This document shows positions 41,895 through 61,000 of a stretch of 64,000 bases of DNA, piece by piece. How positions within the stretch are numbered: position 1 is the first letter of the stretch; the number at the start of each line of letters is the position of its first letter. The position numbers and the translations under genes were made by a program. The notes beneath the pieces are model-generated. The model did no database searches. It was not told the DNA's origin and saw only the letters and a list, made by a program, of their open reading frames with translations. This stretch comes from Bacteroidia bacterium (GTDB lineage Bacteria > Bacteroidota > Bacteroidia > UKL13-3), in contig JALONP010000002.1 of NCBI GenBank assembly GCA_025454875.1, positions 62,001 through 126,000 on the forward strand, given 5' to 3'.

Positions 41895-43517
41895 ATGGAA
41901 ACAAGATTAAAATTTGATTTACCCAAAGATAAATCAAGCATTATTAAAGTACTTGGTGTTGGCGGAGGTGGTGGCAATGCGGTGAACCACATGTTTGAGC
42001 AGGGCATCAAAGGTGTTGACTTTGTGATTTGCAATACTGATTTGCAAGTTTTGGAGGCAAGTCCTATTCCAAATAAAATCCAATTGGGAAGTGGATTAAC
42101 CGCAGGCCTTGGTGCTGGTTCAAACCCTGAAGTAGGCAAAAAAGCCGCCATGGAAGCCATTGAAGATGTAATAGAAGTATTAGGTGTAAATACCAAAATG
42201 CTATTTATTACTGCAGGAATGGGTGGTGGCACTGGAACTGGCGCGGCACCAATCATTGCGAAAACTGCAAAAGAACTTGATATTCTTACCGTGGGAATAG
42301 TAACCACACCTTTTGCTTTTGAGGGTAAAAAGAGAAGATCACATGCTGATGAAGGTATTGAGAACTTGAAAAAAAGTGTCGACTGTTTATTGATTATCAG
42401 CAATGATAAAATTAAAGAAATGTATGGCAATTTGCCCTTACGCCAAGCATTTAGCCATGCTAATGATATATTAACAACCGCTGCAAAAGGAATTGCTGAG
42501 TTGATTACCGATACAGGTTATATCAATGTTGACTTTGAAGATGTTAAAACCGTAATGAGCAATAGTGGTGTTGCCTTGATGGGTTCTGCTTCAGCAGAAG
42601 GAGATGACAGAGCAATTGCCGCAGTGAAAGCAGCATTGGCATCACCATTGTTAAATGATAACCAAATTAAAGGTGCGAAGAACATCTTATTAAATATCTC
42701 ATCTGGAACTGAAGAAGTTTTAATGGATGAAGTGGAACAAATTTCAGCTTATATACAAGATGAAGCAGGACTCACTGCAGATGTTATTTTCGGAACTTCA
42801 TTCGATGAATCGCTCGGAAACAAAATTGCAGTAACGTTAATTGCCACTGGATTTGAGTCGCGTCAAAATTCGATTTCAACCATTTCTGAAACGCGGACCA
42901 AACATGTGTTGTATGAAGCACCACGTAAACCCGATATGGTGATTTCAACATTAGCTGTTGAACCAACTCCGCCACCAGTAGTAAATGAAATTCCTGAAGT
43001 ACCACCTGCGCCAATTGCAGTACCAGAACCTGAACCGATACCTGATGCACTCAACTTCGAACTCAAAATTGAACCAGAAGAAGTGTTTCCAATAGATCCT
43101 CAGTTGTTATTTGAATCAGAAGAAGCACCTATTGAAAATACACCTATTGCGCACCAAGAAGATATTACTCCTATTTCGGAAGTAGATTCAGATGAGTTTG
43201 TGCGCTTTGAGTTAACGGTCAATGAAACAGAAGAAAGTGAGGAAGATGGGATTGAAGAGTCGTCTCCACAATTACTTGAAGAAGAAGAATTGCGAATTGA
43301 ACAGCGTATTCAACGCATCAAGGAACTCAAAAACTTGAATGTAACGATTAACTCTCCAGGTGGTATTCGTGATTTGGAAAAAGAACCTGCCTACAAACGC
43401 AGAAACAAAAAACTTCAAGATGTTCCACATTCATCAGAAACGCAAGTTTCGAGGTTAACCTTGTTCGACTCGGGACTTAAAACCAACAATTCGTTTTTAC
43501 ACGACAATGTTGATTGA
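41895..43517 (+). CDS. ftsZ: Cell-division tubulin homolog FtsZ
   Basis: 540 residues. GTP-binding VGGGGGNAVNHM (22-33), tubulin signature GGGTGTGAAP at 110-119 and T7-loop-like NVDFEDVKTVMSNSG. The globular core ends near 320. A long Glu/Pro-rich linker (~330-500) follows, then a C-terminal peptide region (SRLTLFDSGLKTNNSF). The linker makes it much longer than the E. coli protein (383 residues), as in other Bacteroidota. Last gene of the cluster. Confidence 0.97.
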   Translation: METRLKFDLPKDKSSIIKVLGVGGGGGNAVNHMFEQGIKGVDFVICNTDLQVLEASPIPNKIQLGSGLTAGLGAGSNPEVGKKAAMEAIEDVIEVLGVNTKMLFITAGMGGGTGTGAAPIIAKTAKELDILTVGIVTTPFAFEGKKRRSHADEGIENLKKSVDCLLIISNDKIKEMYGNLPLRQAFSHANDILTTAAKGIAELITDTGYINVDFEDVKTVMSNSGVALMGSASAEGDDRAIAAVKAALASPLLNDNQIKGAKNILLNISSGTEEVLMDEVEQISAYIQDEAGLTADVIFGTSFDESLGNKIAVTLIATGFESRQNSISTISETRTKHVLYEAPRKPDMVISTLAVEPTPPPVVNEIPEVPPAPIAVPEPEPIPDALNFELKIEPEEVFPIDPQLLFESEEAPIENTPIAHQEDITPISEVDSDEFVRFELTVNETEESEEDGIEESSPQLLEEEELRIEQRIQRIKELKNLNVTINSPGGIRDLEKEPAYKRRNKKLQDVPHSSETQVSRLTLFDSGLKTNNSFLHDNVD

Positions 43518-43544: not shown

Positions 43545-43582
43545 AAAGCCACTTTAGGAATATTTCCTTGAGTGGCTTTTTT
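43545..43582 (+). terminator. Rho-independent terminator after ftsZ
   Basis: Stem AAAGCCACT...AGTGGCTTT with an inner TAGGAA/TTCCT extension, followed by TTTTTT. It ends the dcw transcription unit. The 9-bp outer stem is identical to that of the tRNA-Asn terminator near 62530. Confidence 0.85.
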
Positions 43583-43627
43583 GTGAATAGTACATATATG
43601 CCCTTTTAATAATAACCCGAAACCAAA

Positions 43628-44197
43628 ATGAAATTTTCAAAAACATACAACAAAGAAGTTTTTTGCTTAGAAGGAGATTGGAACAAGGATTTGAAAAAGC
43701 AAAACTCCGTACAAGAAGTGCTTTCGTTTTTGAAGAAAAACAGGGATATCGACTATATACATAGGCATTGTGGCACTCGTGAAAACTTGAGTTATTATAT
43801 TAACCAATGGAAACTAAAAAAGTATAAAGACTACAGCATATTATACATTGCTTTTCATGGCAAACCCCATCAAATATTAATTGGAAAAGATATTGTTACG
43901 TTAGATGAATTAGCTGAAATGTTGGGGCCCAATTGCCATAATAAAATCATTCATTTTGGTACTTGCCACACGTTGAATATCGATTTAAGGCATATTAAAA
44001 GATTTTTACGAAAAACGAATGCATTATGCGTTTGCGGTTTTGGAAAAGAAATCAAATTTGTTGAAGGCTGCGTCTTCGATATCTTGCTGATAGACATGCT
44101 ACAAGAGTTCAGAAATATTGGTACAGTGCAAAGTTACTTGGGTCAATATTACAAATCATTAGCCCAAAAATTGGCCTTTAAACTTGTGCACTTGTAA
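43628..44197 (+). CDS. Small protein with a caspase/CHAT-like His-Cys arrangement
   Basis: 189 residues, no signal peptide or membrane helix. Two hydrophobic strands each end in a possible catalytic residue: YSILYIAFHG (His77-Gly78) and NKIIHFGTCHT (Cys113). A spacing of 36 residues with 'hhhhHG' and 'hhhxxxC' contexts is the layout of clan CD proteases (caspase, CHAT, gingipain). The stretch DIVTLDELAEMLG between them is helical, as expected. The resemblance is by eye; I do not recognise a named family with certainty. It stands alone between the ftsZ terminator and a large T9SS gene. Confidence 0.6.
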   Translation: MKFSKTYNKEVFCLEGDWNKDLKKQNSVQEVLSFLKKNRDIDYIHRHCGTRENLSYYINQWKLKKYKDYSILYIAFHGKPHQILIGKDIVTLDELAEMLGPNCHNKIIHFGTCHTLNIDLRHIKRFLRKTNALCVCGFGKEIKFVEGCVFDILLIDMLQEFRNIGTVQSYLGQYYKSLAQKLAFKLVHL

Positions 44198-44292
44198 ATC
44201 TGATTATTACTAAATTGTTAAGCACAAAACTTCTAACATTGAGTTAAAGTTTAGGTTTTAGGTTGCGTGGCTTTTTGACACCACCTATTACA

Positions 44293-47200
44293 ATGAAACG
44301 TTCAATTCAAAGTAAAATATTTCTTCTTATTTGCACGGTATGCATATTTACCGCTACTACAGCACAAGTAAGCATTACAGGCAGCAGTGCTGTAACCGAA
44401 AATTTTGACGGTATTGGCACATCTGCCACTGCAACATTGCCAAGCAATTGGAAAATGTCGGCAGCAGGGCAAGGTTCATCAAGTCTTGCATTTACAGCTG
44501 TGGGCAATGTTACAGCCACTACTGCAGCGGCAAGTACTGGATCACCAACAGCGGGTGCAAGATACAATTGGGGTAACGGAAGCACTACATCTGACAGAGC
44601 AATAGGGTTTATGACTTCTGGAGGATATGCATCGCCAAATGCCATTCTAGTGCAGTATAGGAACAATGGTTCAACTAACATCACCAATATCTCAATTAGC
44701 TTTGATATTGAACGATACAGGATAAATACCGCAAATGCAAGCCTCACTTTTTTTACCTCAACTGATGGTACGACATGGACAGCTCAAACTACGGGAGATA
44801 TTGCCACAAGCGCATTTCCAACAGGCACGAGCGCGTATACATTTACAGGTGGAACAGTTATTTCACGTTCGGTTAACATAAGTTCACTTTCCATAGCAGT
44901 TTCATCTGACTTTTACGTAATGTGGGTGATGAATACCACAGGCGCAAATTCACAAGGAATAGGATTAGACAACGTAAGTTTAACCGCCACATTTGCTCCT
45001 GCAGCCGGAACATCACTCCTCACAGCTGGATCTGTAGCCGAGCCAACAAGCTTCTCTTCATTAATTAATACGCAGGTTGCAGCGGTACAAAATTATGATA
45101 TAGCTATTCAAGATGATGGAACCACTCCAGCAACAGATGCTACTCCAACGCAAATTTCACAAATACGGTTTAGCCAAGGTACCGGAAATGATATTGCAAA
45201 CTGGACCCAAGCAATATTGGGTGCAGAATTAAGTGATGGAACAAATACCCTTACTGGAACCATTAACGCATCCAATATTACCTTTTCAGCTATTCCAAAT
45301 GGTATTGGGCAATTGGGACATATTGCTGACAATGCCACTAAAACCTATACCCTCAAAATTTGGCTCAACACCGATGTAGGTTCCTTAAAAACATCACTTG
45401 ATGGAAGCAATATTGTGTTCAGAAATACCAATGCTGATTTCACAATTACGGGGAGTCAACTCGCAGCTTCGCAAGACGTAAACTCTGGCAGCAGTAACAA
45501 TGCTGTTTCAGTTATTGCAACAGCAATCGGATTTGCACAAAATACAAGCAATGCAGACGTGAATAGCAATATGTTGCCTGCACCTGCCGTACAAGCTATT
45601 GATGCAAACGGAAACCGTGATTTGGATTTTACTTCTTCTATCAGCATCACATCAAGCGGCACTTTAAACACAACCCCACAAACTGTTTCTGCAACATCGG
45701 GCTTGGCTACATTTACCATTAATCACACCGCCACTGGAACTTCGCTCACACTTACAGCAGCCTCATCTGGTTTCAGCAATATCACTTCGGCAAGTTTTAA
45801 TGTTAATATACCAAGTGCTGCTGCAATATTGTGGAGCAATGCAAGTGGTAGTGCTTGGTTAACAGCATCAAACTGGACAGGAACAACAATTCCTTCCGCA
45901 TCTCAAGTTGGACAATTTGGAGTAAATCCTACAGCAGCTACTATTGGTATAAATATGAATGGAACAACAAACAATGGTGCAAACAATCAAATAGTAGGTG
46001 GAATAGAAATAACCAATTCAAGGTCAGCTGCATTGAATATAGGTAACAGTGCAGGAAGTACTGCTGGAAACTTGACATTGGCTGGAGTTACTATTAATTC
46101 CATTGAGAACACAGTAATTCGAAATAACAGTTCACAACTCCTAACTATACAAGCCAATCAAACTTCTACAATGGGGTTGATTTTAAACAATACAACAAAC
46201 AATATTATTCAAATCAGTGGGACAGGCGGTGTAACCATTAGTTCTGTAATCAGTGGAAGCAATCCCATTACCAAAAGAGGAAGCGGAAGCGGAATATTGC
46301 AACTAACAGGTGCTAACACGTATACGGGTTTAACAACTGTAACAGAAGGTACTTTGCAATTAAACAGAACTGGTGGAACAACCGTACCCACAACCAACAA
46401 TTTTACAGTTGATGGAGGTACCCTCAGAATTAGTTCAAACCAAACGCTCAATAACCTTACACTCTCTTCTGGTAACCTTACCATTGATGTTGGCGTTACC
46501 CTTACCATTAATGGAACCTTTACTTTTACCGGAGGTACTATCACCAATAATGGTACTCTTAGTTATGGCAGTTCTTCAACATTAACATACAACACTGGTG
46601 ATAGCAGAACAGCTGGAGTCGAATGGCCATCAAGCGGCCAGCCTGCAAACATTAGTTTGTTAAACAACTCAAGTGTTGCATTAAGTGGAAACAGAACCAT
46701 CGGCAATTTAACCACAACAGCTGGAACACAGCTTAGTATAGGATCCAATACACTCGTTCTAACTGGCACATTCAGTGGAGGAGGAACCTTAGGTGGAGGT
46801 ACATCGTCAAACTTAACAATTGGTGGAAATGTCGGAACAATTGCATTTACGAGTGGATCGCGTTCACTTCGTAATTTAATAATTGGAACAGGCTCCAATG
46901 CAAGTCTTACACTTGGAAGTTCACTTTCAATTACCACAGATGGCAGCATAACATTTAATTCCGCAGGTACCAAATCATTTCAAACAGGTGGCAATCAATT
47001 ATTGCTGCTCGGAACAGAAGGTAGCTGCGCGTATATTGGCAATTTAAATGGCGCAACTGTTACGGGTGCAATCACCATTCAACGTTTTGTTAAAGAAGTA
47101 GCAAGGAGGTGGCGCTTTTGGGGATCGCCATTTAGCAATGCAACTTTTGAAGATGTAAGAGATGATATTTTTGTAACTGGTGCGGGTACCGGAACCACAT

Positions 47201-48744
47201 TGGGGACGCTAAATAGCAATGGATTTGATGCAACAACGACAAATGTACCTTCTGTGTATTCATATAACGAAACAGCAACCGGTAACGCACAACAAGGTTG
47301 GCAAGCACTTTCCAACAATACTTCTTCTTTAACCAATCAAACCATTGTGGCGGGTAGAGGTTACCGCATTTTTGTGAGAGGTGATCGAAGTGATTTAAAC
47401 CGATTAAGTGGAACCAATACAACCCAAAATCAAGTGATTATTCAAGTAAGTGGAACGATTAATTCAGGGTCCATTTCGTTGCCGGTAACCTATACATCAA
47501 CAGGTGATGCCGCTGCCGATGGTTGGAACTTTGTTGCCAATCCATATCCTGCAGCATATGATTGGAACGCTTTTTATGACGATGCATCAACAACCAAAAC
47601 CAATATAGATCCCACCATTTGGATTTTAGACGCGACAACTTCATCATACAAATCGTATAACGCAAACTCGAGTGGTGATCTCACTGGCGGGCTTATTCCG
47701 ATGGGCAGTGGCTTTTGGGTAAAAGCAAATGGCATGTCACCTTCACTCATTTTAGAAGAACGTTTTAAAAGTACAATCCAACCAATAGTACTTCATAAAA
47801 GCGCTGCAAATGAACTTACACTTACCTTACAACTCGACTCTATTACAAAAGACACTTGGATATTGCTACCTGAACCGGTAAGCTCCGACTCGCTTGATGG
47901 GTATGATATTGTGAAACTACAAGGCAGCATTGCATTGCATAGCGCTACACAAAATGGAAGTTTGCTTGCACTTGATGCACGCCCAATACAACCTGCTGAT
48001 ACCATCGATTTGTATTGCAGCGGAGGCAATCGCAATTATTCCTTAGTAGTAAATAGTATTCCTACTGATGGATATGAATATACTTTGCTCGACCGCAAAA
48101 CTGGACAATTACAATTGCTTCAATTGGGCACCTTATATTCATTTACCACTAACCAATTAGACAGCACCAGCTTTGGAAAACGATTTGCCATTGTTTACAA
48201 TACACCACAACCATTACCTGTTACACTTATTGCATTTGAAGCTAAGATATTGCCTGAACTCGTAAATTTGAGCTGGTCTACTACAATGGAATCAATGCTC
48301 GCTTATTTTGAAATTGAACGCGCAGGAATCAACAAACAATTTGAAGCAATTGGCAGGCTGAACGCAATTGGCAATTCAAATACAGTGCGCTCGTATCATT
48401 ACAATGATGCAAAAGCACACCAATTAGGCAATGAATTATACTACCGTTTAAAAATGGTGGATGAAGATGGCGCTTACCGTTATTCACCAACTCAACATGT
48501 ACAATTTCATAAAATGCAGTCTGCAAATGAGGTGTTTTGTTGGCCAAATCCAGCTTCTGACGAAGTGAAAATCTCCGCGAACGATGCCATCGCATCTGTT
48601 AGTATTTACAATCCTAATGGTGCACTTGTGACACACACGCAACACACAACTATTCAAACCAAAGAATGGGATAATGGCCTTTACCATGTTCAAGTTGTGT
48701 TTGCTTCGGGCGAAGTTAGTAGCTGCAAATTGGTGAAAGAATAA
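44293..48744 (+). CDS. Giant T9SS-sorted surface protein with autotransporter-type beta repeats
   Basis: 1483 residues from the ATG at 44293, which gives a clean signal peptide (KIFLLICTVCIFTATTAQ). An N-terminal jellyroll-like region (SVTENFDGIG-type, ~20-240) is followed by Ig-like strands and a central part with the autotransporter-associated beta-strand motif (GSGILQLTGANTYTGLTTVTEGTLQL, ~680-710) and many NLTI/GTFSGGG turns. A late domain has WNFVANPYPAAYDWNAFY, and the C terminus is a T9SS sorting domain (VFCWPNPASDEVKISA, NGLYHVQVVF). Very rich in Ser, Thr, Asn and Gly. Expected on the cell surface as an adhesin or matrix protein. Confidence 0.85.
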   Translation: MKRSIQSKIFLLICTVCIFTATTAQVSITGSSAVTENFDGIGTSATATLPSNWKMSAAGQGSSSLAFTAVGNVTATTAAASTGSPTAGARYNWGNGSTTSDRAIGFMTSGGYASPNAILVQYRNNGSTNITNISISFDIERYRINTANASLTFFTSTDGTTWTAQTTGDIATSAFPTGTSAYTFTGGTVISRSVNISSLSIAVSSDFYVMWVMNTTGANSQGIGLDNVSLTATFAPAAGTSLLTAGSVAEPTSFSSLINTQVAAVQNYDIAIQDDGTTPATDATPTQISQIRFSQGTGNDIANWTQAILGAELSDGTNTLTGTINASNITFSAIPNGIGQLGHIADNATKTYTLKIWLNTDVGSLKTSLDGSNIVFRNTNADFTITGSQLAASQDVNSGSSNNAVSVIATAIGFAQNTSNADVNSNMLPAPAVQAIDANGNRDLDFTSSISITSSGTLNTTPQTVSATSGLATFTINHTATGTSLTLTAASSGFSNITSASFNVNIPSAAAILWSNASGSAWLTASNWTGTTIPSASQVGQFGVNPTAATIGINMNGTTNNGANNQIVGGIEITNSRSAALNIGNSAGSTAGNLTLAGVTINSIENTVIRNNSSQLLTIQANQTSTMGLILNNTTNNIIQISGTGGVTISSVISGSNPITKRGSGSGILQLTGANTYTGLTTVTEGTLQLNRTGGTTVPTTNNFTVDGGTLRISSNQTLNNLTLSSGNLTIDVGVTLTINGTFTFTGGTITNNGTLSYGSSSTLTYNTGDSRTAGVEWPSSGQPANISLLNNSSVALSGNRTIGNLTTTAGTQLSIGSNTLVLTGTFSGGGTLGGGTSSNLTIGGNVGTIAFTSGSRSLRNLIIGTGSNASLTLGSSLSITTDGSITFNSAGTKSFQTGGNQLLLLGTEGSCAYIGNLNGATVTGAITIQRFVKEVARRWRFWGSPFSNATFEDVRDDIFVTGAGTGTTLGTLNSNGFDATTTNVPSVYSYNETATGNAQQGWQALSNNTSSLTNQTIVAGRGYRIFVRGDRSDLNRLSGTNTTQNQVIIQVSGTINSGSISLPVTYTSTGDAAADGWNFVANPYPAAYDWNAFYDDASTTKTNIDPTIWILDATTSSYKSYNANSSGDLTGGLIPMGSGFWVKANGMSPSLILEERFKSTIQPIVLHKSAANELTLTLQLDSITKDTWILLPEPVSSDSLDGYDIVKLQGSIALHSATQNGSLLALDARPIQPADTIDLYCSGGNRNYSLVVNSIPTDGYEYTLLDRKTGQLQLLQLGTLYSFTTNQLDSTSFGKRFAIVYNTPQPLPVTLIAFEAKILPELVNLSWSTTMESMLAYFEIERAGINKQFEAIGRLNAIGNSNTVRSYHYNDAKAHQLGNELYYRLKMVDEDGAYRYSPTQHVQFHKMQSANEVFCWPNPASDEVKISANDAIASVSIYNPNGALVTHTQHTTIQTKEWDNGLYHVQVVFASGEVSSCKLVKE

Positions 48745-49020: not shown

Positions 49021-49302
49021 ATGTTAGGTGAAAAACTAAGAGAATTGCGAGAAGCCATAGGGTTACTACAAAGAGAAGTTGCTGCTGACTTACAGGTTGA
49101 CACTGCATACATTAGTAAAATGGAGCACAATGAAAAACCTGTTAGCCGTACTCACCTTAAAAAATTGTCCAAGTTATATGGTATATCTGAAAGCGATTTG
49201 ATACCTATTTGGCTTGCAGACAAAGTGCTGCAACTGGTAGAAAACGAAAAATTTTCAGTTGAGGCTTTGGAAATGGCTTTAAATAAAGTGAAACAAAAGT
49301 GA
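49021..49302 (+). CDS. XRE-family helix-turn-helix regulator (controller-like)
   Basis: 93 residues. A helix-turn-helix spans about 5-60 (LRELREAIGLLQREVAADLQVDTAYISKME, with LQREVAADLQ and TAYISKME as the two helices). A short C-terminal helical tail (VEALEMALNKVKQK) may dimerise. Size and position at the head of a restriction-type operon match C (controller) proteins that delay nuclease expression. The stop overlaps the next start (GTGA). Confidence 0.88.
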   Translation: MLGEKLRELREAIGLLQREVAADLQVDTAYISKMEHNEKPVSRTHLKKLSKLYGISESDLIPIWLADKVLQLVENEKFSVEALEMALNKVKQK

Positions 49303-52151
49303 ATGAATTAACCCCATATCAAGCAAAATACATTGCATACGAACTTACTAGACGCTTCCCATCGGGTAGCAGCGAGAAGTTTAATGTTGCTTTGATGGAT
49401 GCTCAGGTTGACTTAAACCCACATCAGGTGGAATCAGCTTTGTTTGCTTTTAAGTCTCCCCTTTCCAAAGGTGCAATTTTGGCTGACGAAGTTGGATTAG
49501 GTAAAACAATTGAAGCCGGAATTTTACTTTCTCAACTTTGGGCTGAACGAAGAAAAAAACTTTTAATTATTTGTCCTGCCAACCTTAGAAAACAATGGAG
49601 CCAAGAATTATATGATAAGTTCTTCTTAGACTCAATCATACTTGAAAACAAGAACTTCAGTGAGTTTGTAAAATCGGGCAAGCGAAACCCGTTTGACCAA
49701 AATAAAATCATCATTTGCTCTTATCAGTTTGCAAGAGCTAAGGCAGACTTAATGCAATTAATTTCCTGGGACTTGGCAGTTGTGGATGAGGCCCACCGTT
49801 TACGGAATGTTTACAAGCCGACCAATAAAATAGGAAACGCAATTAAAGAAGCCTTATCACATTCAAGAAAAGCGTTATTAACTGCTACCCCTTTGCAAAA
49901 CTCGCTACTTGAATTATACGGGCTTGTAAGCATTATTGATGAACACACTTTTGGTGACATCAAAAGTTTCAGAAGTCAATTTTTAAGAACAGTTGAAGGA
50001 GAAAATTATCAGGACTTAAGAGACCGTTTGAAATCGGTTTGCATCCGCAATCTTCGCAGACAAGTTCAGGAATACATTCGTTACACCAACCGAATTCCGC
50101 TTACTATAAAGTTTGAGCCATCGGATGATGAACAGAAACTCTATGAAGCAGTAAGTGATTATCTGCAAAAGGAGTTGTTGTATGCCTTGCCTGCCAGTCA
50201 AAGGCATTTAATGACTCTGATTCTCAGAAAACTTTTGGCTTCATCTTCCTTTGCGATTGCAGGAACATTGAATAGCCTGATTAAGAAATTACATCAGGTT
50301 ATTAAAGACCACCAAAAAGTGAGTGTGATTGATGAAGTTTCAGAAGACTATGAACTTTTTGAAGAACAAGCCGAAGAATGGGAAGAGGATGAACAGACAG
50401 ATGATAATTCTTTAACCGAAACAGATATTGAATCTATAAAACTTGAAATAACAGAACTAGAGAAATTCAGAGATTTAGCGGAATCCATTAAACATAACGC
50501 CAAGGGAGAAAAACTATTGACCGCTTTGAAGGAAGGCTTTACTAAAATGGATAAACATGCCAATAAGAAAGCCATCATCTTCACAGAATCTACCCGAACG
50601 CAGAATTACCTTTTCAATTTGCTGAGTGAGCAATATCCCAACAAGATAGTTTTGTTCAATGGTTCAAACAATGATGAAACATCCAACAAGGTTTACAAAA
50701 GCTGGTTGGAGAAAAACAGAGGAACTGATAAAGTAACTGGTTCTCCAACGGCTGATAAACGGGCTGCATTGGTTGAGTATTTCAGAAATGAAGCCACCAT
50801 TATGATTGCTACCGAGGCAGCAGCAGAAGGTATCAACTTGCAATTCTGCTCATTGCTTATCAATTATGATTTGCCTTGGAATCCGCAACGGATCGAACAG
50901 CGTATTGGCCGTTGCCATCGCTACGGACAAAAATATGATGTGGTGGTAGTGAATTTCCTGAATGTGAAAAATGCTGCCGACATTCGGGTATTTCAATTGC
51001 TCGATGAAAAGTTCAAACTATTCAGTGGTGTATTTGGTGCCAGTGATGATGTGTTGGGTAGTATTGAATCGGGAGTTGATTTTGAAAAACGAATTGGCGA
51101 AATCTATCAGAAGTACAGAACTGAGCAGGAAATCATTGAACAGTTTGATTTGCTTCAAAAAGAATTAGACGAGCAAATCAACAGCAAAATGCTCTCAACC
51201 CGTGAAACGCTTTTAGCAAACTTTGATGATGAAGTATTGGACAAATTAAAAATCCGTTTGTCTGAAAGCAGAGAATACATCAATAAATACGAACAATGGC
51301 TTTGGGCAGTTACCAAATTCGAATTGAACGGTGCTGCCACTTTCAATGATAAAAACCTAAGTTTCAAACTCAAAAAACAGCCTTATTCAGAAGCAACTTT
51401 TCCAACAGAATCTTTCAAATTGGGAAAACCAAATACTGAAGCTCACGTGTATCGCATGGGGCATCCCTTGGCGCAAACCGTTTTAGAAAAAGCTAAAGAG
51501 AAAGAATTGCCTGAAGCATCACTCACTTTTGACTTAACAGGTTATGAGGGAAATGTTTCAATACTCGATGAACTCAAAGGAAAACAAGGCTGGCTGAGTG
51601 CTTTGGCTGTAAGTGTGGACTCTTTTGAATCATCTGACTATGTGATTGCATTTGGTCAAACAGACGATGGCAAACCTTTAAATGAGGAGCAAGCCAAAAG
51701 GTTACTCACTTTGCCTGTGAAACAAGCAAATGGAAACGCACCATGCATTGATGAAAAACTAGTTGCCCTTCAAACAGAAAGTCATATGGATGCTTTACTG
51801 AAATCTATCTCAGAAAGGGACAACAACTATTTGAAATTTGAGACAGAGAAACTCACCAAATGGGCTGAGGACAGAATGAATGCTGCGGAATTAGCCATCA
51901 AAGAAACCAAGGCTAAAATAAAAGAGTTAAACCGGGAAGTACAGAAAACCACTGACCCGATGGCTCAATTGAAACTGCAACAACAATTGCAGGAAGAATC
52001 AAGGAAACAGAAAAAACAAAGGCAGGAAATTTTTATCGTGGAAGATGAAATTGCAGAAATGAGAGATAAAATGATAGCTGATATACAAAAGCGAATGAAA
52101 CAAGAGATTAACAAAACACATTTGTTTACCATTAACTGGAAATTAGTATAG
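49299..52151 (+). CDS. SNF2/RapA-type helicase of the defence operon
   Basis: 950 residues from GTG. RecA1: ADEVGLGKT (Walker A, Lys69), DEAH at 163-166 and TATPLQN (~195). RecA2: FTESTRTQNYL, IATEAAAEGINLQ and QRIGRCHRYGQ at 534-544. These are Swi2/Snf2 superfamily 2 motifs; such proteins move along double-stranded DNA rather than unwinding it. The two lobes are split by an acidic insert (~345-400, many Glu/Asp). A long C-terminal region ends in a coiled coil (~850-940). No nuclease motif seen. DISARM DrmD is also of this helicase class. Followed after 2 bp by the methyltransferase gene. Confidence 0.9.
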   Translation: MNELTPYQAKYIAYELTRRFPSGSSEKFNVALMDAQVDLNPHQVESALFAFKSPLSKGAILADEVGLGKTIEAGILLSQLWAERRKKLLIICPANLRKQWSQELYDKFFLDSIILENKNFSEFVKSGKRNPFDQNKIIICSYQFARAKADLMQLISWDLAVVDEAHRLRNVYKPTNKIGNAIKEALSHSRKALLTATPLQNSLLELYGLVSIIDEHTFGDIKSFRSQFLRTVEGENYQDLRDRLKSVCIRNLRRQVQEYIRYTNRIPLTIKFEPSDDEQKLYEAVSDYLQKELLYALPASQRHLMTLILRKLLASSSFAIAGTLNSLIKKLHQVIKDHQKVSVIDEVSEDYELFEEQAEEWEEDEQTDDNSLTETDIESIKLEITELEKFRDLAESIKHNAKGEKLLTALKEGFTKMDKHANKKAIIFTESTRTQNYLFNLLSEQYPNKIVLFNGSNNDETSNKVYKSWLEKNRGTDKVTGSPTADKRAALVEYFRNEATIMIATEAAAEGINLQFCSLLINYDLPWNPQRIEQRIGRCHRYGQKYDVVVVNFLNVKNAADIRVFQLLDEKFKLFSGVFGASDDVLGSIESGVDFEKRIGEIYQKYRTEQEIIEQFDLLQKELDEQINSKMLSTRETLLANFDDEVLDKLKIRLSESREYINKYEQWLWAVTKFELNGAATFNDKNLSFKLKKQPYSEATFPTESFKLGKPNTEAHVYRMGHPLAQTVLEKAKEKELPEASLTFDLTGYEGNVSILDELKGKQGWLSALAVSVDSFESSDYVIAFGQTDDGKPLNEEQAKRLLTLPVKQANGNAPCIDEKLVALQTESHMDALLKSISERDNNYLKFETEKLTKWAEDRMNAAELAIKETKAKIKELNREVQKTTDPMAQLKLQQQLQEESRKQKKQRQEIFIVEDEIAEMRDKMIADIQKRMKQEINKTHLFTINWKLV

Positions 52152-52153
52152 GC

Positions 52154-55100
52154 ATGACAAACTACGATAAACTCATCAATACACTCAAGGAAGTGTTCAT
52201 GCTTGATAAAGCGGAACTTGATTTTGGTATTTACAGAATCATGAACCAAAAGCGGAAAGATATTGAACAGTTTTTAGAGGTGGACTTAGTTCCGCAAGTA
52301 CATAAAGTATTGTCTGAAAGCCTTTCGGTGGACAAAAAGGCTTTGCAAAAGGAATTAGATGATGCCATAAAAGCCGCACAGACTTTAGGAGCAGACCCAA
52401 ACACTTTGCCTAAAGTGCAGGAATTAAAAAAACGTTTGGGTGAAGCTGCCGATATGGTTGCTATTGAAAACGAAGTTTTCTCACTGCTTGCCAATTTCTT
52501 TAAACGCTATTTTGATAATGGCGATTTCATTAGTATGCGTAGGTACAAAAAAGATGTGTATGCCATACCCTATGAAGGCGAAGAAGTAAAGCTGCATTGG
52601 GCCAATGCCGACCAATACTACATTAAAACCAGCGAATACTTTAAAGTTTATCGTTTTAAGTTGAGCAATGGCAAAACGGTTTGTTTTGAATTGGTAGAAG
52701 CCAGCACCGAACAAAATAACAACAAAACACAGGGCGATAAAGAAAGACGATTTGCCATTTACACAGAAAAGGTTTATGAAACCATAGGTGATGAATTTAA
52801 AATTTACTTTACCTACGAGCCAACCGACAAAAAAGTAAAACAAAGTGATTTACTGGAACAGGCTTTTGATGCCGTAAAAACCCAAATACCACAAGATTTT
52901 TTGGAGTTGCTTAGTTTGAAACCAACAGAAAAAGACAAGCAAAGAACCTTGCTGCAAAAGCACTTGAACGATTATACAGCCCGTAACACCTTTGACTACT
53001 TTATACATAAAGATTTGGGTGGTTTCCTTAGCCGTGAATTAGACTTCTATATTAAAAACGAAGTGCTGTTTATTGACGACCTGAACACCCGTGACGAACA
53101 GGAATTTTTAAAACAACTGAGCAAGATAAAAGCTATTAAAAAGATTGGTGAAAAGATTATCACTTTCCTAGCACAGCTAGAAAACTTCCAAAAAAAATTG
53201 TGGCTGAAAAAGAAAATGGTGGTGGAATGCAACTACTGCATTACGCTTGACCGTGTGCCAAAGGATTTGTACCCCGAAATACTGAATAGCCAAGCCCAAC
53301 TACAGGAATGGATTAAACTCTTTGCTATTGACGAAATAAAAGCCGAAAAAGCAGGTGGCTTGTTTATGGAAGATAAAGTGGGCTTTAGCATCCCGCTTAC
53401 GCTGGAGTTTTTAAACCAAAATCAATTCTTGGTTTTAGATACTGCCTTTTTCTCTGAAGCCTTTAAATGGCAGTTGATTAGCAGCATTGAGAATTTTGAT
53501 GAGCAGTGTGATAGTTGGTTGATTAACTCAGACAATTTTCAAGCTTTAAATTTACTAAAGGCCAGGTTTAATCAACAAGCAAATACGATTTATATAGATC
53601 CGCCATATAATACTAGTGCATCGGAAATTGTCTATAAAAATAATTACAAACACTCCTCCTGGCTATCTCTTATGCATGATAGGTTAGTAATTGGCCGAGA
53701 ATTTTTGAAAGAAGATGGAATAAAAACCGTTACAATTGATGATGTTGAAGTAAAAGAACTTCATTTTTTATTGGAGTCGATTTATTCAAGAGAAAATGTT
53801 GCAGGCTTAATAGCAATTAGAATTAATCCTTCTGGCAGACCAACGACAGATGGATTGGCCTTATCACATGAATATGCCATAATGGTTAAAAACTCGTACA
53901 AGTCAAAAGTTATTAAAATCGACCGTTCTGAAGAACAGAAAAAAAGGTTCAACTTAACCGATAAAGATGGAATTTATGAGCAACGTAACTTTCGTAGGGA
54001 GGGCTCAAACTCAAATAGGGAAGACGGTAAAAGGCAATGGTATCCAATCTACGTTAATGTGAAAGATTTAAAGTTACGTGTACCCGAAATGAAATGGAAT
54101 GATGACACAGAGCTATGGGCAATACTAGAAAAGCAAAATGAAGATGAACAAATCATTTACCCTATAAATGATGAAGGAGTTGAGAAAAACTGGAGATGGA
54201 GTTGGGAGAATGTCAAGAGGGACTATTCACAGTTCTATGCCAAATATCAGGAGGATAAAATACAGGTGTATTATAAGTATAGACCAAATGAAGAAGGTAC
54301 CACACCTTTAACGTTTTGGGCTGATTCAAAATACTCTGCTACTGAACATGGCACAAAACCACTGAAAGATTTATTCCCCATAAACAATTTTTCTTATCCC
54401 AAATCAATTTATGCGGTAGAAGATACTTTGCTCATAAGCGGATTAAAGAAAAGAGACGGCTTTGTCCTTGACTATTTTTCAGGTTCTGGAACTACTGGTC
54501 ATGCTGTTATAAACCTTAATAGGATTGATAACGGTAAACGGAAATGCATTCTTGTAGAAATGGGGGAATATTTTGATTCAGTCACCAAACCCCGCATCCA
54601 AAAAGTAATTTACAGCAAAGACTGGAAAGATGGCAAACCTGTAAGCCGTGAAGGCATCAGCCATTGCTTTAAATATATGCGTTTGGAGAGCTATGAAGAT
54701 ACACTCAACAACTTAGCTTTAAAACAAACTGAAACCCAACAACAAGCTTTGGCAATGAACCCAGCGTTTAAAGAGGGCTACATACTCAACTATATGTTGG
54801 ATGTAGAAGCCAAAGACAGTTTGCTCAATCTGGAGTGGTTTGTCAACCCGTTTAACTGCTACCTGAACATCACCAAAAACAACGAACTACTACCCACCAA
54901 AATAGATTTGGTAGAAACCTTCAATTACCTGATAGGGCTGGTGGTAGAAAGTTATGCTAAACCCAAAGAAGGCTATGTGGTGCTAACCGGTAAAAACTTA
55001 GCCGGAGAAAAAATACTGGTCGTATGGCGAGATTGCACCCAACACAACAGCACCGCATTGAACCAATTTTTAGAAAAAAGCAAATACAACCCACTCGATG

Positions 55101-55225
55101 CTGAATTTGACCGCATCTACGTAAATGGCGACAATAACGTAGAAAACCTAAAAACTGGAGACGAACGCTGGAAAGTGGTTTTGATTGAGGAAGAATTTGG
55201 GAAGAGAATGTTTGAAAATATTTAA
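52154..55225 (+). CDS. Mod-like beta-class DNA adenine methyltransferase
   Basis: 1023 residues. The catalytic DPPYNT (motif IV) is at 482-487 and the SAM-binding FSGSGTTG (motif I) at 775-782. Motif IV before motif I marks the beta class, to which type III Mod subunits belong. The ~290 residues between them should hold the target-recognition domain. The first ~450 residues are a large extra region of unknown function (ELDFGIYRIMNQKRKDIEQFL at the start), and ~170 residues follow motif I. DPPY points to N6-adenine methylation. Length exceeds a typical type III Mod (~600-700). Confidence 0.9.
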   Translation: MTNYDKLINTLKEVFMLDKAELDFGIYRIMNQKRKDIEQFLEVDLVPQVHKVLSESLSVDKKALQKELDDAIKAAQTLGADPNTLPKVQELKKRLGEAADMVAIENEVFSLLANFFKRYFDNGDFISMRRYKKDVYAIPYEGEEVKLHWANADQYYIKTSEYFKVYRFKLSNGKTVCFELVEASTEQNNNKTQGDKERRFAIYTEKVYETIGDEFKIYFTYEPTDKKVKQSDLLEQAFDAVKTQIPQDFLELLSLKPTEKDKQRTLLQKHLNDYTARNTFDYFIHKDLGGFLSRELDFYIKNEVLFIDDLNTRDEQEFLKQLSKIKAIKKIGEKIITFLAQLENFQKKLWLKKKMVVECNYCITLDRVPKDLYPEILNSQAQLQEWIKLFAIDEIKAEKAGGLFMEDKVGFSIPLTLEFLNQNQFLVLDTAFFSEAFKWQLISSIENFDEQCDSWLINSDNFQALNLLKARFNQQANTIYIDPPYNTSASEIVYKNNYKHSSWLSLMHDRLVIGREFLKEDGIKTVTIDDVEVKELHFLLESIYSRENVAGLIAIRINPSGRPTTDGLALSHEYAIMVKNSYKSKVIKIDRSEEQKKRFNLTDKDGIYEQRNFRREGSNSNREDGKRQWYPIYVNVKDLKLRVPEMKWNDDTELWAILEKQNEDEQIIYPINDEGVEKNWRWSWENVKRDYSQFYAKYQEDKIQVYYKYRPNEEGTTPLTFWADSKYSATEHGTKPLKDLFPINNFSYPKSIYAVEDTLLISGLKKRDGFVLDYFSGSGTTGHAVINLNRIDNGKRKCILVEMGEYFDSVTKPRIQKVIYSKDWKDGKPVSREGISHCFKYMRLESYEDTLNNLALKQTETQQQALAMNPAFKEGYILNYMLDVEAKDSLLNLEWFVNPFNCYLNITKNNELLPTKIDLVETFNYLIGLVVESYAKPKEGYVVLTGKNLAGEKILVVWRDCTQHNSTALNQFLEKSKYNPLDAEFDRIYVNGDNNVENLKTGDERWKVVLIEEEFGKRMFENI

Positions 55226-55228
55226 GAT

Positions 55229-58039
55229 ATGGTAGGTACAAAATGGTATAAATGTGATTTGCATTTGCATACACCCGCAAGTAAATGTTTTCACGACAGA
55301 GATACTGTTACTCCTGAACAATGGGTACAAGAAGCTATTGATAAAGGTTTAAACTGTGTTGCTGTTACCGACCATAATTCTGCGGAATGGGTAGAATTAA
55401 TTCAGGAGGAAGCTTCAAAAAAGGGTCTAAATGTTTTTCCAGGTGTAGAACTCACTTGTAGTGAAGCTAAGGTTCACATACTTGTTTTGTTTGAAATTGG
55501 AACAAATAGAAGAACCATTGAGGATTTCATAACTCTTTGTAGAATTGATAATACAAAATTTGGGGAACAGGATGCTCATTCTCCATTGTCGGTAGAGGAA
55601 GTAATCAAAGAAGCATCTAACAAGAACGCCTTGTGCATTCCTGCACATATTGACGAATATGCAGGTTTAGGGCAAGTCGCTCATGGCTTGAGGGAAAAAC
55701 TTTTTCAATCAGATATTTTTTTAGGAGTTCAAGTTGTCCACAAAGAATTTTTGGTTGAAGAAGGAAAATTTAAAAAACAAGAAGCTCTAATTTCAATCAA
55801 TAAATTTAGAGGTGCAACTGACGAAGAAATTACTTCGGGTAAACTAAAGATTTCTGAAGAAAAATTAAAGGAATGGCGTTCACCAGTTCAACAATCAATA
55901 AAACACAGCAAAGCAATTTTAACTTTTTCTGATAATCCTCATTCTGAATTTAATTCAAAACATGGTTTATGGGGAATGGGTAGAAGATTTACTTGGATTA
56001 AAATGGATCAGAAACCAAGTTTAGAAAGTTTAAGACAGGCAATGCTGTTACATCAGTTCAGAATTAAAAATGATTTTGATTGTCCTGACCAACCCTATTC
56101 AATACCTGACACTTGGATTCAAAGCATAACAATTAAAGAAACAGAACTTTCAAAAAGTGGCAATGATGTTTTGATAAACTTTAATCCACAAATGAATACT
56201 ATTATTGGAGGAAGAGGAAGTGGCAAATCATCCATACTACAATTCCTCAGAGGAGTGTTTGAAAAAGGTCATGAAATTGATACTTTAACCACAATTAAAA
56301 CAGAGTTCTCTAATTTCTTCAAAGTTAAAGACAAGAAGAAGCAAGGGGTGCTTAAAGCTGCTTGTAGCATTGAAATACTAATTAACAGAAGAGACGAATT
56401 ATATAAAGTTTTGTTTAAACAGGAGACACCTATCAAGCATAAAACACAAATACTAAAATTCAATGAGATAAGCGGTTACTTTGATGTGGAGCAAAATTTG
56501 TCATTTATGAAAATTCTTGACTTCGATATCTTTTCTCAAAAGCAGATTTATGAAATTGCAAATAATTTAAACTCTTTAAGAGACCGAATTGATGTTTCTT
56601 CTTTTGATATTTCAAAACAACAAGATGTTTTAGAGAATAAAAAAGCGGAATACATTAAACAGTCTTCCGAAATAAGAGCACTTAAATTAAAAGTTTCAAA
56701 AAAAGACGTTCTTAAATCCGAGATTCAGGATATTGAAAATAAAATCAATAAAGTAAAGGAAATTGGAATTGAAAATGAACTTAAAAAAATTCAAAATTTT
56801 AATTCAGAGAACATTCAATTTATAAATTTTAGAGTTGGGATTGAATCTGAACAAGGAAAATTTGATTCTCTAACGGAATCTGTTCGTGGATTAAAATTAA
56901 AACCTGAAGCTTACACTGAAAGCTCAAGGATTATTTTGGAAGGTTTAATTAATAATGTGAATAGTGAAATTGCAAAAATTGCTGTTACATTAGAAAAGAC
57001 TAAGTCTGATTTTGTAAAACTGAATACATTTTTAGAAGCAGAGTTGAGTGCTAATAAATGGAGTAAGGATAAAAAGGAAACAGAAGAATCATTTGAAAAA
57101 AAGAAAGAAACACTAATAGGCCAGGGAATAGTTAAAATTGAAGAAATTGAAGCAGATATTAAACTACTTGCAATTAAAAAAAGTGAATTAGAATCAATTG
57201 AAAAAATTGAAACTGAAATTACAGAAAAGGAAGCCGCATTAGCCAGTATTAAAGAACTCTATATTACTGAAAGATTAAAACTAAGTACTGTTAGGAAAGA
57301 GTTTTTAGAAGGGTTGCTTTATGATGGGAAGGTACGAGCTAAAGTTAACGGGTGTAAAGACTTTGAAAACTTAGAAGAACAAATCAGGTTAGTTTTAAGT
57401 AGTCCAGAATCATTCGATAAAGATGTTGCGACAATGATAGAGTATTGGTCGGGGCCTGATGTTAAAAGGGCTAACAAGGGTGTTTTTGATATTATCGTTG
57501 GAATACATAACGGTACAAATACAGGTGCTGATTTTGATAAAAGATTTATTACAAAAGTGAAAGGTCTAAATGGAGAGCAATTGGATTCTTTTGATTTAAT
57601 GTTTCCTGAAGATGTCATTCAATTAGAGTACAAAACAAATGCAGGTGTTTGGAAAGCTTTATCAAATGCATCCGCTGGACAAAAAACAGCGGCTATACTA
57701 ACATTGATTTTATCCGAAGGAAACAAACCATTAATTCTTGACCAACCAGAAGACGATTTAGACAATTATTTAATTTATGACTTGGTAGTTGACCAATTAA
57801 GAAAATCAAAAGAATCAAGACAAATAATTACTGTTACGCACAATGCGAATATTCCAGTAAACGGAGATAGTGAAGTAATAATTGTTATGGATTCGGAAAC
57901 AAAACATTTAAGCCCCAAACTAATAGGTACTATTGAAGATGATGAAATAAAAAAAGCTGTTTGCTCAATTATGGAAGGTGGTACAGATGCTTTTAACATG
58001 CGTTCTAAACGTTATCAAAATGTAAAAACTAATGGCTAA
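55229..58039 (+). CDS. PHP phosphoesterase fused to an SMC/ABC-type ATPase
   Basis: 936 residues. PHP domain first: HLH (His12, His14), VTDHN (46-50), PGVELTC with Glu74, His83, AHIDEY (His140) and SDNPH (Asp235, His238). The usual metal ligands are all present, so it should be active. Then an ATPase head: Walker A GGRGSGKS (327-334), a long coiled coil (~430-720), signature ASAGQK (814-819), Walker B LILDQPEDD (Asp838, Glu841) and H-loop THN (His871). This resembles Rad50/RecN-like defence ATPases; from memory, databases call similar proteins TrlF family. More AT-rich than neighbours (e.g. 11 G/C in 56761-56820). Overlaps the next gene by 8 nt. Confidence 0.88.
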   Translation: MVGTKWYKCDLHLHTPASKCFHDRDTVTPEQWVQEAIDKGLNCVAVTDHNSAEWVELIQEEASKKGLNVFPGVELTCSEAKVHILVLFEIGTNRRTIEDFITLCRIDNTKFGEQDAHSPLSVEEVIKEASNKNALCIPAHIDEYAGLGQVAHGLREKLFQSDIFLGVQVVHKEFLVEEGKFKKQEALISINKFRGATDEEITSGKLKISEEKLKEWRSPVQQSIKHSKAILTFSDNPHSEFNSKHGLWGMGRRFTWIKMDQKPSLESLRQAMLLHQFRIKNDFDCPDQPYSIPDTWIQSITIKETELSKSGNDVLINFNPQMNTIIGGRGSGKSSILQFLRGVFEKGHEIDTLTTIKTEFSNFFKVKDKKKQGVLKAACSIEILINRRDELYKVLFKQETPIKHKTQILKFNEISGYFDVEQNLSFMKILDFDIFSQKQIYEIANNLNSLRDRIDVSSFDISKQQDVLENKKAEYIKQSSEIRALKLKVSKKDVLKSEIQDIENKINKVKEIGIENELKKIQNFNSENIQFINFRVGIESEQGKFDSLTESVRGLKLKPEAYTESSRIILEGLINNVNSEIAKIAVTLEKTKSDFVKLNTFLEAELSANKWSKDKKETEESFEKKKETLIGQGIVKIEEIEADIKLLAIKKSELESIEKIETEITEKEAALASIKELYITERLKLSTVRKEFLEGLLYDGKVRAKVNGCKDFENLEEQIRLVLSSPESFDKDVATMIEYWSGPDVKRANKGVFDIIVGIHNGTNTGADFDKRFITKVKGLNGEQLDSFDLMFPEDVIQLEYKTNAGVWKALSNASAGQKTAAILTLILSEGNKPLILDQPEDDLDNYLIYDLVVDQLRKSKESRQIITVTHNANIPVNGDSEVIIVMDSETKHLSPKLIGTIEDDEIKKAVCSIMEGGTDAFNMRSKRYQNVKTNG

Positions 58040-61000
58040 ATTAAGTTCATCACTCGTACTCAATAAATACATCCTAAATCTGTTTGGTGTAACAGACTTA
58101 GAGGCATTGTCATCGGATTTAAAAGATTCGGCTCTGGAAGGTTATGATGAAAACAATGTCTCTCATTTCCATCATGCTTTGGTAGCAAGGTTTTACAGCA
58201 ATGCAAATTTGCCAAAAGAATTATTGCTTCAATACGATCAAAATATTTTCACACACACCCAAACTATTTCAGAGAAAAGAACAGAACCCATCAAATGGAA
58301 ATACTTTCAGTATTTGGCATTGCTTTTTACTGAAATTTATTTAGATAAATACTTCACTGATAAAACAGTCCTACAAAGTGAATTAAACACCTTTTTAGAC
58401 TTCAATCACGGTAAGCATGGTAATGATTTTAAAGTTATCACTGAATTCAAATTAGAAACTATTGTTAACGATTTAAACAAGCTTGCTTATTGGAATGCAA
58501 CAGGTTCAGGTAAAACCTTATTGATGCATGTAAACATTTTGCAGTATAGGTATTATTTAAGCCAACATAACCTTGAAAAATCGCTGAACAGAATTATTGT
58601 GCTAACTCCCAATGAAGGACTTTCTAAACAGCATTTAAAGGAGTTTGTCCAGTCAGGTATGGAGGCCGAATTGTTTGATAAAACAGGAGGTTCTTTGTTT
58701 TCAGGTCAAAAAATTGAAATCATCGACATTCACAAACTCGAAGAAACAAGCGGCAATAAAACGGTTGCAGTTGAAGCATTTGAAGGTAACAACTTGGTTT
58801 TAGTAGATGAAGGACACAGAGGGGCTGGTGGTACAGAATGGAAAGACAAACGAAATCGTTTGTGTGAAACAGGTTTTTCATTTGAGTATTCAGCAACTTT
58901 TGGTCAGGCGGTACATGCTTTGTCAGGTGCAAAACAAAAAGCATTGATTGATGAATATGGTAAGGCAACATTGTTTGACTATTCCTATCGCTATTTCTAT
59001 AATGATGGTTATGGAAAAGATTATCAGATTTTAAACCTTAATGAACAATGGCATGAACCTGGAAAAGAAGAACGTGTGGTTCTTTATCTAACTGCCAGTT
59101 TACTTTCGTTTTATGAACAGTTATTAGTTTTCAAAGAGCATGGTAAAGCTATAGAACCATTTTTGATTGACAAGCCATTGGCAATTTTTGTAGGTGGTAA
59201 AGTTACTAAAAACATCAGCAAAGAAACGGCTTCCGATGTAGTTGAAGTATTAAAATTCATTGAGGCATTTGCAAAGAATGACACACAATCCATTGAACGA
59301 ATTAAATTATTGTTAGAAGCCAAAGATGGTTTGAACAATGAATTAGGGCATTCCATTTTTAAAAATGCTTTTAAAGAAATCCGTAAATCGGGTAAATCTG
59401 CACAGTCGGTTTTTCAAGATGTTCTGAGGGAAGTTTTCAATTCAGATGTTGCTGGTGCTTCACTGCATATTGACAACCTTAAAGGACAAGACGGTGAAAT
59501 TGGTTTACGCATTGGTAACGGTGAGTATTTTGGTGTTATCAATGTTGGTGACGACAAAGGTTTATTGAAAATATGCGAAGCACACAAAATGAACATTGGT
59601 GAAAGAGATTTTTCCAGTTCATTATTTCACGACATCAACAGCAAAAGCAGTAAAGTAAATATCCTGATTGGTTCAAAAAAATTCAGTGAAGGTTGGAGCA
59701 GTTGGCGAGTAAGCACAATGGGCTTGTTGAATATTGGTCGAGGCGAAGGTTCTGAAATTATTCAGCTTTTTGGTAGAGGTGTACGATTGAAAGGCTATAA
59801 ATTTTCATTGAAACGGAGCACTGCTTTAGATGCCAGTTTAAAACCCGATTATATTCCTGAAGTATTGCCGATTCTTGAAACGCTAAATATTTTCGGTTTA
59901 AGAGCTGATTATATGCAGCAATTCAAAGATTACCTTGAAGAAGAAGGCTTGCCAACGGATTCTGATTTTGAAAAAATCACTGTTGACATTCTGCCAACAA
60001 TTTCTGATTTATCGGAGAAAAAACTTAAATATATCAAGGTTAAAGATGGCTCCAACTTTAAGCGTGATGTTTTGGTGGATGCTGTAATTACAGAAAAAGT
60101 TCCGCCTGTATTAGTGGATTGGTATCCGAAAGTTCAGGTATTAAAAAGCTCTAGAACAACAAATGTATCAACGATAGTAACAGTTGAACAAGGTAAACTT
60201 GAAAATATTCATATTGCATTCTTAGATTGGAATAAGATCTATTTTGAAATACAGAAGTTCAAAAATGAACGCAGTTGGTATAATGTAAACCTTTCAATTG
60301 AAGCATTAAAAGATATTCTTCAAAGTTCGGAATGGTACACCTTACTAATTCCTTCAAGCGAACTTGAATTAACTGATTACAGTAAAGTAAAGCTATGGCA
60401 TGAATTGGCTCTTACACTTTTGAAATCATTTGTAGAAAGACTTTACAACTATCAGAAAAACAAGTTTTACAGCGACAAAATAGAAGTTGCTTTTATTGAT
60501 AGCACACATCCAAATTTTGAAGCCGAATACAACTTTCTCGTTAAAAAGACAGAGGACAGGCTAATCGGAAAGATTAAAGAATTAAAGGAAGTAGTTCGCA
60601 AAAAAGAATTTCAGGAAAACTTTAAAATCGACAACGACTTTGAGGCTTTGTATGCCAATCTTCATCTTTATCAGCCTTTAATTTATATTGACAAAGGCAG
60701 ATATGAAGAAGTAATAAAAATACAACCAGTTCCTTTGAATAAAGGCGAAAGAGATTTAGTTGAAGACCTAAAACAATATTTTGACACCAATACAGAGTTT
60801 TTTAAAGACAAACAACTTTACTTGCTGAGAAATATGAGTAAAAAAGGTATTGGCTTTTTTGAGGCAAACAACTTTTTCCCTGACTTTATCCTTTGGCTTG
60901 TCATAGGCAACAAGCAATACGTTTCATTTATTGATCCAAAAGGGCTTAGACAAATTCAAGGTTTGACAGACCCTAAAATTCAATTACATAAAACTATCAA

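Follow-up and report, generated by a model that had tools for sequence, protein, structure and literature searches.

The DUF6642 gene and its surroundings

The gene considered here occupies positions 43628-44197 on the forward strand of the window, that is, of the whole 64,000-nucleotide stretch of DNA that was analysed. This open reading frame begins with ATG and encodes a protein of 189 residues, which the Pfam scan places in PF20347 (DUF6642; E = 2e-31, 109.5 bits against a gathering threshold of 27, covering positions 2-180 of the 182 in the profile), an assignment accompanied by an AlphaFold2 model and its fold matches. The family is described in Pfam as one of unknown function, and our literature search found no mention of DUF6642 or PF20347. 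Likewise, NCBIfam, PHROGs and a PDB sequence search gave no significant match to the window protein. A preliminary description of this DNA had drawn attention to His77 in the motif YIAFHG (codon at 43856-43858) and Cys113 in IIHFGTC (codon at 43964-43966) of a 189-residue protein, and the open reading frame and its translation are as described; the two residues are predicted to be a catalytic histidine following strand β3 and a nucleophile following strand β4, respectively. One domain fills the whole protein, in keeping with the earlier remark that it has no partner domain, and because hydropathy detects no transmembrane segment, we infer that the protein is cytosolic. The source genome holds a single copy. 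A search of the genome collection recovered 16 homologous loci with 52-87% identity, the closest named relative being Bacteroidetes bacterium UKL13-3 (87%), and these loci together with low dN/dS values (see below) indicate a real, conserved gene.

The ftsQ-ftsA-ftsZ cluster lies directly upstream, with ftsZ at 41895-43517 on the same strand (its L002 orthologue carries the Pfam Tubulin and FtsZ_C domains). Between ftsZ and the DUF6642 gene there is a terminator-like hairpin followed by a T-run on the forward strand (43545-43583), built from an inverted repeat at 43545-43560 and 43564-43579; its folding energy is -19.3 kcal/mol (z = -5.33), which none of 200 shuffled sequences equalled, and a scan for consensus terminators did not list it. 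Since this hairpin splits ftsZ from the DUF6642 gene, separate transcription is suggested. The downstream neighbour (44263-48744) encodes a repetitive protein of 1493 residues, probably secreted, and a homologue of it also follows the DUF6642 gene in UKL13-3. For the window, then, the statement that no partner gene stands beside the protease candidate was borne out, with ftsZ behind a hairpin on one side and the 1493-residue protein on the other. In the window's family, a convergent Fic/DOC gene adjoins the DUF6642 gene at two other loci (L003:6772-7743 and L007:6577-7530), and a partial match is found at L001. Further downstream, a cassette at 49021-61196 encodes a helix-turn-helix regulator, a DrmD-like SNF2 helicase (E = 1.7e-206), a type III methyltransferase, a Ppl-like protein and a type III restriction enzyme. 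This defence island, which had correctly been placed 5 kb away, looks like a mixture of DISARM-like and type III components that is complete in itself.

Predicted fold and relation to clan CD peptidases

The core of clan CD, the CHF, is described as strands 1-4, helices α1-α3 and small strands between β3 and α3, with the dyad of the caspase monomer at the C-terminal ends of β3 and β4 (PMC4357240). The AlphaFold2 model of the window protein, built from 17 sequences (pLDDT 76.5, pTM 0.76), has the order β-α-β-α-β(His77)-small strands-α-β(Cys113)-α-β-α-α-β, with elements at E10-15, H26-39, E45-48, H51-61, E70-75, E83-85, E88-90, H92-99 and E107-112 (E, strand; H, helix). Judged from this order of elements along the chain, the predicted structure contains the CHF core. 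Dyad placement was assessed as a His-Gly following β3 and a Cys following a small residue at the end of β4, and the model agrees on both counts, as the His-Gly at 77-78 comes after E70-75 and Cys113 after E107-112.

In structural comparisons of the window model, the best match was the SAVED-CHAT chain 8tl0 (Z = 9.4, rmsd 4.3, 170 residues aligned), with DdvA and TPR-CHAT both at Z = 9.1, and the top ten of 1000 re-aligned chains were all CHAT chains or DdvA. The margin over unrelated folds is small for this model, the first plainly unrelated fold being a glutamate receptor at Z = 8.0. Foldseek ranked caspase-4 first (E = 8.5e-4). A second AlphaFold model, made for the homologue L016, which is 52% identical to the window protein (pLDDT 72.7), gave a clearer form of the same result, with the TPR-CHAT chain 7xsr as its best match (Z = 11.2, rmsd 3.5, 161 residues aligned), followed by SAVED-CHAT at 10.9 and a C11 protease at 8.4; CHAT, DdvA, C11 and Tce1 chains fill its first 13 rows, and no unrelated fold comes before Z = 7.7. 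DdvA and Tce1 are presumably aligned over a caspase-type domain of their own. With the L016 model, Foldseek returned SAVED-CHAT 8tl0 (E = 1.9e-5) and then caspases, with an FMN reductase (E = 3.5e-4) among them. The secondary-structure order of the two models agrees, except that strand 2 of L016 is shorter than three residues. TM-scores are modest (about 0.4-0.56), as expected from models of moderate confidence, and for the same reason active-site geometry lies outside the evidence that these models can give. The comparison with CHAT and caspase folds that had been proposed as a check therefore ended with clan CD-type chains as the best matches of both models. In a viral fold library, the best match was BFVD A0A8S5MXG5 from Myoviridae sp. 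ctWaE18 (320 residues, E = 3.8e-5), an uncharacterised phage protein with a similar predicted fold; other matches there were weak.

Profile alignments offer a second line of evidence. A profile of the 56 homologues that keep both residues (the HC branch) matched a profile of 23 Bacteroidota Peptidase_C14 domains with 89.5% probability (E = 2e-6), and one of 30 CHAT domains with a low 13.9% (E = 2e-3); in both alignments, His77 and Cys113 fall on the catalytic pair. Five neighbour-family control profiles reached at most 1%, 30 column shuffles of each profile at most 0.95%, and reversed profiles 0.2%. When the residues around both catalytic positions were masked, the C14 match kept a probability of 33.8% (its score of 31.8 compares with 18.1 for the highest shuffle), and the CHAT match dropped to 1.4%. 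As such, the relation to C14 does not rest on the motif alone. The window protein is nearer to C14 by sequence and nearer to CHAT by structure. Neither PF00656 (C14) nor PF12770 (CHAT) matched the window protein in the Pfam scan, which for C14 was followed to E = 10, or any protein of its genome, and because the model of neither Pfam family is passed, DUF6642 is best treated as a separate clan CD family, a relative of C14 rather than a member.

The rarity of the motif itself was estimated with a pattern (hydrophobic-HG-spacer-hydrophobic-small-small-Cys) that was tuned after seeing the query. It was absent from the 357 other proteins scanned and arose in 264 of 100,000 shuffled versions of the query, and it catches 19 of 30 CHAT domains and none of 23 C14 domains; given this miss and the tuning, it serves as a rarity estimate only. 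An earlier, stricter pattern was dropped as it matched no CHAT or C14 domain. The stronger case against chance is made by conservation, fold and profile alignment. Taken together, the two structure models, the profile alignment and a dyad kept in 56 of 85 homologues uphold the proposed caspase/CHAT-like identity, and placing DUF6642 in the caspase fold is new, as judged on the literature and leaving the Pfam clan listing aside.

Several known systems can be compared with DUF6642. DUF4347-type proteins are secreted effectors or very large, and DUF4347 (PF14252) weakly matches the stretch around His77, residues 58-97 (E = 0.075, below the curated cut-off). Hcp3-Tce1 is a fold match (Z = 7.7 with the window model, 8.0 with the L016 model). 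To our knowledge, Bacteroidota form no endospores. YabG, a sporulation protease proposed for clan CD and tied to endospores, resembles DUF6642, by description, as a bacterial His-Cys protease with a role in cell physiology whose sequence, in the account given of it, shows no clear tie to the rest of clan CD (PMC12445089). PA0256 is reported to carry DUF4347 (PMC8262886). The best structural matches, the CHAT proteases (Csx29/TPR-CHAT of Craspase, SAVED-CHAT, PF12770), agree with DUF6642 in the order and the alignment register of His and Cys. DUF6642, with 189 residues in total, differs from them in having no TPR, SAVED or other sensor domain, and its His-Cys spacing is 36, as against 42 (H585/C627; PMC9729208) and 43 (H615/C658; PMC10028731) given for CHAT. 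TPR-CHAT is described as having no inhibitory peptide (PMC9729208), and DUF6642 likewise has none. The C14 orthocaspases and metacaspases (PF00656) show the strongest profile similarity and the same order of secondary structure; unlike them, DUF6642 has no regulatory domains, and other residues precede its Cys.

Retention and loss of the His/Cys pair

Conservation of the two residues was followed through 85 distinct homologues, gathered from searches of the genome, its relatives, the order, the phylum and the class together with one Brevibacterium plasmid; the set takes the matches that were listed with a locus and not the full match set. Both residues are kept in 56 of the 85 and both are missing from 28, and the remaining sequence is a fragment without the His region. 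No full-length copy with only one of the two was found among the 85, so that the pair appears to be lost only together, which supports a joint catalytic role. Both are invariant in 17 of 17 sequences in a first comparison and in all 54 HC sequences counted in the conservation table (54 HC and 28 dyad-less sequences; L077, L012 and L156 left out). The spacing between them is 36 in 48 of the 56 HC sequences and 37, 38 or 43 in the remainder.

All 28 dyad-less sequences come from one family, f5, which is probably Flavobacteriaceae. In the tree (83 of the 85 rows, without the fragment L077 and the truncated L012) they group as a single clade, which has a long stem and 100/100 support. Their own profile matches neither C14 (1.3%) nor CHAT (1.0%). 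Both branches are under purifying selection, with dN/dS of 0.012-0.042 in the HC branch (nine pairs with a finite estimate; pairs involving the window sequence are dS-saturated) and 0.018-0.135 in the dyad-less branch (eight such pairs). On sequence grounds, the f5 clade is thus a predicted lineage-wide pseudoenzyme. Since the intact pair is present in C14, CHAT and all other DUF6642 lineages, it is most likely ancestral. Inactive bacterial caspase homologues with both residues replaced have been described as pseudo-orthocaspases (PMC6426788), a C14 precedent for the inactive branch in f5; the window protein, which keeps both residues, is not of this kind. All-or-none loss of the dyad within one DUF6642 clade is a new observation. 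The preliminary description had proposed conservation of the pair as a check, and the outcome is divided, with 56 of 85 homologues supporting it and one monophyletic clade of 28 departing from it; as the residues are lost all or none, this complicates the protease assignment and does not refute it.

Conservation of Trp18 reaches 96% in the HC branch, and the dyad-less branch has lost this residue, a pattern from which a place lining the active site may be proposed. That the dyad-less clade retains its scaffold points to binding as a further role of the fold, and as the scaffold is useful there without catalysis, HC-branch proteins could also be mainly binders. Two further copies stand apart. 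The protein at L156:1519-2196 (genome G520) is related only very distantly (E = 1.3e-9, branch length above 4) but has His and Cys intact, and it may represent a small clan CD family of its own. At L077, around 5009-5601 (genome G441, completeness 81%), DUF6642 is broken by in-frame stops, which is a recent loss or an assembly fault.

Distribution, neighbourhoods and possible functions

The DUF6642 model matches in 30 of 395 genomes of the phylum, and homologues were found in 28 of 64 genomes of the order and 53 of 395 of the class; phyla beyond Bacteroidota were sampled through plasmid and phage collections. Each positive genome has one copy, bar one broken copy that is listed twice, and the tree groups by family. 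Absence is patchy even within genera, consistent with repeated loss. We infer from this a largely vertical, patchily lost accessory regulator of Bacteroidia, and the patchy presence also fits an accessory stress or defence gene.

Neighbourhoods were compared through 91 flanking genes from 57 loci, with the window and the near-duplicates L004, L005, L010, L011 and L012 left out; flanking genes of fewer than 100 or at least 1300 residues were also left out, which leaves no gene from L001. TPR, enoyl-CoA hydratase, HAD, PMT_2 and FtsZ are the most frequent Pfam families in this set. In family f106, the neighbours are an enoyl-CoA hydratase gene and a B12-binding gene, and in other families they include MgtE, a class I tRNA synthetase, an M23 peptidase and AraC regulators, among others. 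No partner gene conserved across the family as a whole was found in the loci examined.

A caspase-type fold with a conserved dyad is well supported by computation; the activity, substrate and role given here are proposals. On balance, the product of the gene is probably a minimal clan CD cysteine peptidase, cytosolic and with a single domain, that acts in trans as a gated regulator and does not belong to the nearby island. By established clan CD chemistry, Cys113 would be the nucleophile, activated by His77 as a base, and the enzyme would be an endopeptidase with P1 specificity. It would cut one or a few proteins of the cell in trans at a specific site. The protein lacks a pro-domain, a linker and a fused sensor, so control of its activity would be allosteric and would come from a partner protein or from dimerisation; allosteric gating without a zymogen or inhibitory peptide has a precedent in TPR-CHAT as described in PMC9729208 and PMC10028731. 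In f5, the enzyme would have turned catalytically dead while keeping its scaffold, and binding of the partner or substrate would itself be part of the job.

The earlier suggestion of a defence effector would make the protein an abortive-infection protease, activated by infection, that cuts an essential host protein and works with the island 5 kb away. This is unlikely, even though bacteria do use clan CD proteases for defence, the top structural matches are TPR-CHAT and SAVED-CHAT, the distribution is patchy and the DrmD-like/type III cassette is near. PADLOC-DB 2.0.0 has no family that matches the window protein up to E = 10, and nothing was found that ties the gene to the island at 49021-61196; membership of that island was rejected, there being no linkage in relatives. 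At 1e-10, PADLOC matches no more than 7 of the 91 flanking genes, a raw count that carries no background rate for random genes, and all are Fic (2) or candidate systems (PDC-S04, 2; PDC-S24, 2; PDC-M11B, 1), with no restriction gene. The homologues stand mostly beside housekeeping genes such as ftsZ, radA and those for enoyl-CoA hydratase, MgtE and tRNA synthetase, they occur once per genome, and their tree follows families. No relative was found in phages or viral contigs. Among 72,556 plasmid records there was one match, an actinobacterial DUF6642 with an intact dyad on a Brevibacterium spongiae plasmid (L048:7764-8492), 1.3 kb past an 'abortive infection family protein', a position that speaks for defence. 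Of the two roles first put forward, the regulatory protease is thus the likelier and the defence effector went unsupported; that the dyad-less clade is still maintained also favours regulation, and a regulatory protease is a more probable role for the protein than one among the antiviral genes close by.

It is more doubtful still that the family is non-proteolytic throughout, working by binding, with His and Cys kept for structure, metal or redox reasons. A whole clade, 28 of the 85 sequences, manages without the pair and yet is under strong purifying selection, as this reading would have it. Against it, both residues are absolutely conserved in the HC branch (54/54 as counted; 56/56 by definition of the branch), they align to the catalytic residues of C14 and CHAT, and they are lost only together.

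A protease of cell division, acting with the dcw cluster, for example by trimming FtsZ or FtsA as a separase-like timer, is decidedly improbable. Its appeal lies in the position of the gene directly behind ftsQ-ftsA-ftsZ and in ftsZ being in the upstream flank in 11 of the 28 positive genomes of the window's family (nine directly adjacent, two with two genes between); the ftsZ-adjacent copies span all three main subclades of that family, so that the place downstream of ftsZ is taken as ancestral there. However, strong hairpins part the two genes in five of the six directly adjacent loci examined, ftsZ is outside the flank in 17 of the 28 genomes (with radA instead in five of them), and in the other families DUF6642 does not adjoin ftsZ in the loci examined. 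An operon with ftsZ was rejected owing to the intervening hairpins, and the ancestral position was retained.

An accidental likeness between a Rossmann-like protein and caspases, prompted by the many α/β chains at Z = 7-8 and the FMN reductase among the Foldseek matches, can be set aside as highly improbable, because clan CD-type chains head the matches of both models, the L016 model has a margin over unrelated folds (11.2 against 7.7) and the C14 profile similarity survives masking of the motif.

The gated regulatory peptidase preferred here can be extended, more speculatively, to the gene neighbourhoods of other families. In f94, f62, f72 and f93, a gene for a TPR membrane protein lies directly downstream in 10 of the 11 genomes examined (G604, also a match, is left out of the count), on the same strand and with a gap of -1 to 9 bases at the seven loci with gene calls, where one gene is cut by a contig end. 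This neighbour has weak O-mannosyltransferase-like similarity. Downstream of DUF6642 at L013-L016, there are three tandem paralogous genes of about 640 residues, a row that begins at or just past the DUF6642 stop codon; the first has about eight transmembrane segments (L013, L014) and C-terminal TPRs, with weak TMTC/PMT similarity. Two other genes of this neighbourhood, one encoding some 1240 residues and one with a B12-binding domain, are also conserved at this distance, so the TPR linkage may partly be plain synteny. No homologue of the TPR membrane gene was found in the window's genome, a weak negative as the search had no positive control. It is conceivable, if rather doubtful, that DUF6642 proteins form an unrecognised group of very small, stand-alone clan CD proteases of Bacteroidota, which would be switchable regulators in most lineages, operon-coupled in some to membrane TPR/glycosyltransferase-like proteins as a split counterpart of TPR-CHAT, and converted in one family, by a single event, to a pseudoprotease competing for or guarding the same partner.

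To summarize, a Pfam family of unknown function can now be tested as a protease family, for which the 56 intact and 28 dyad-less sequences provide a set of natural mutants. A minimal caspase fold without a zymogen, sensor or fused regulator would be a simple system for studying the gating of bacterial clan CD proteases, and DUF6642 also allows one to ask why a catalytically dead version is worth keeping.
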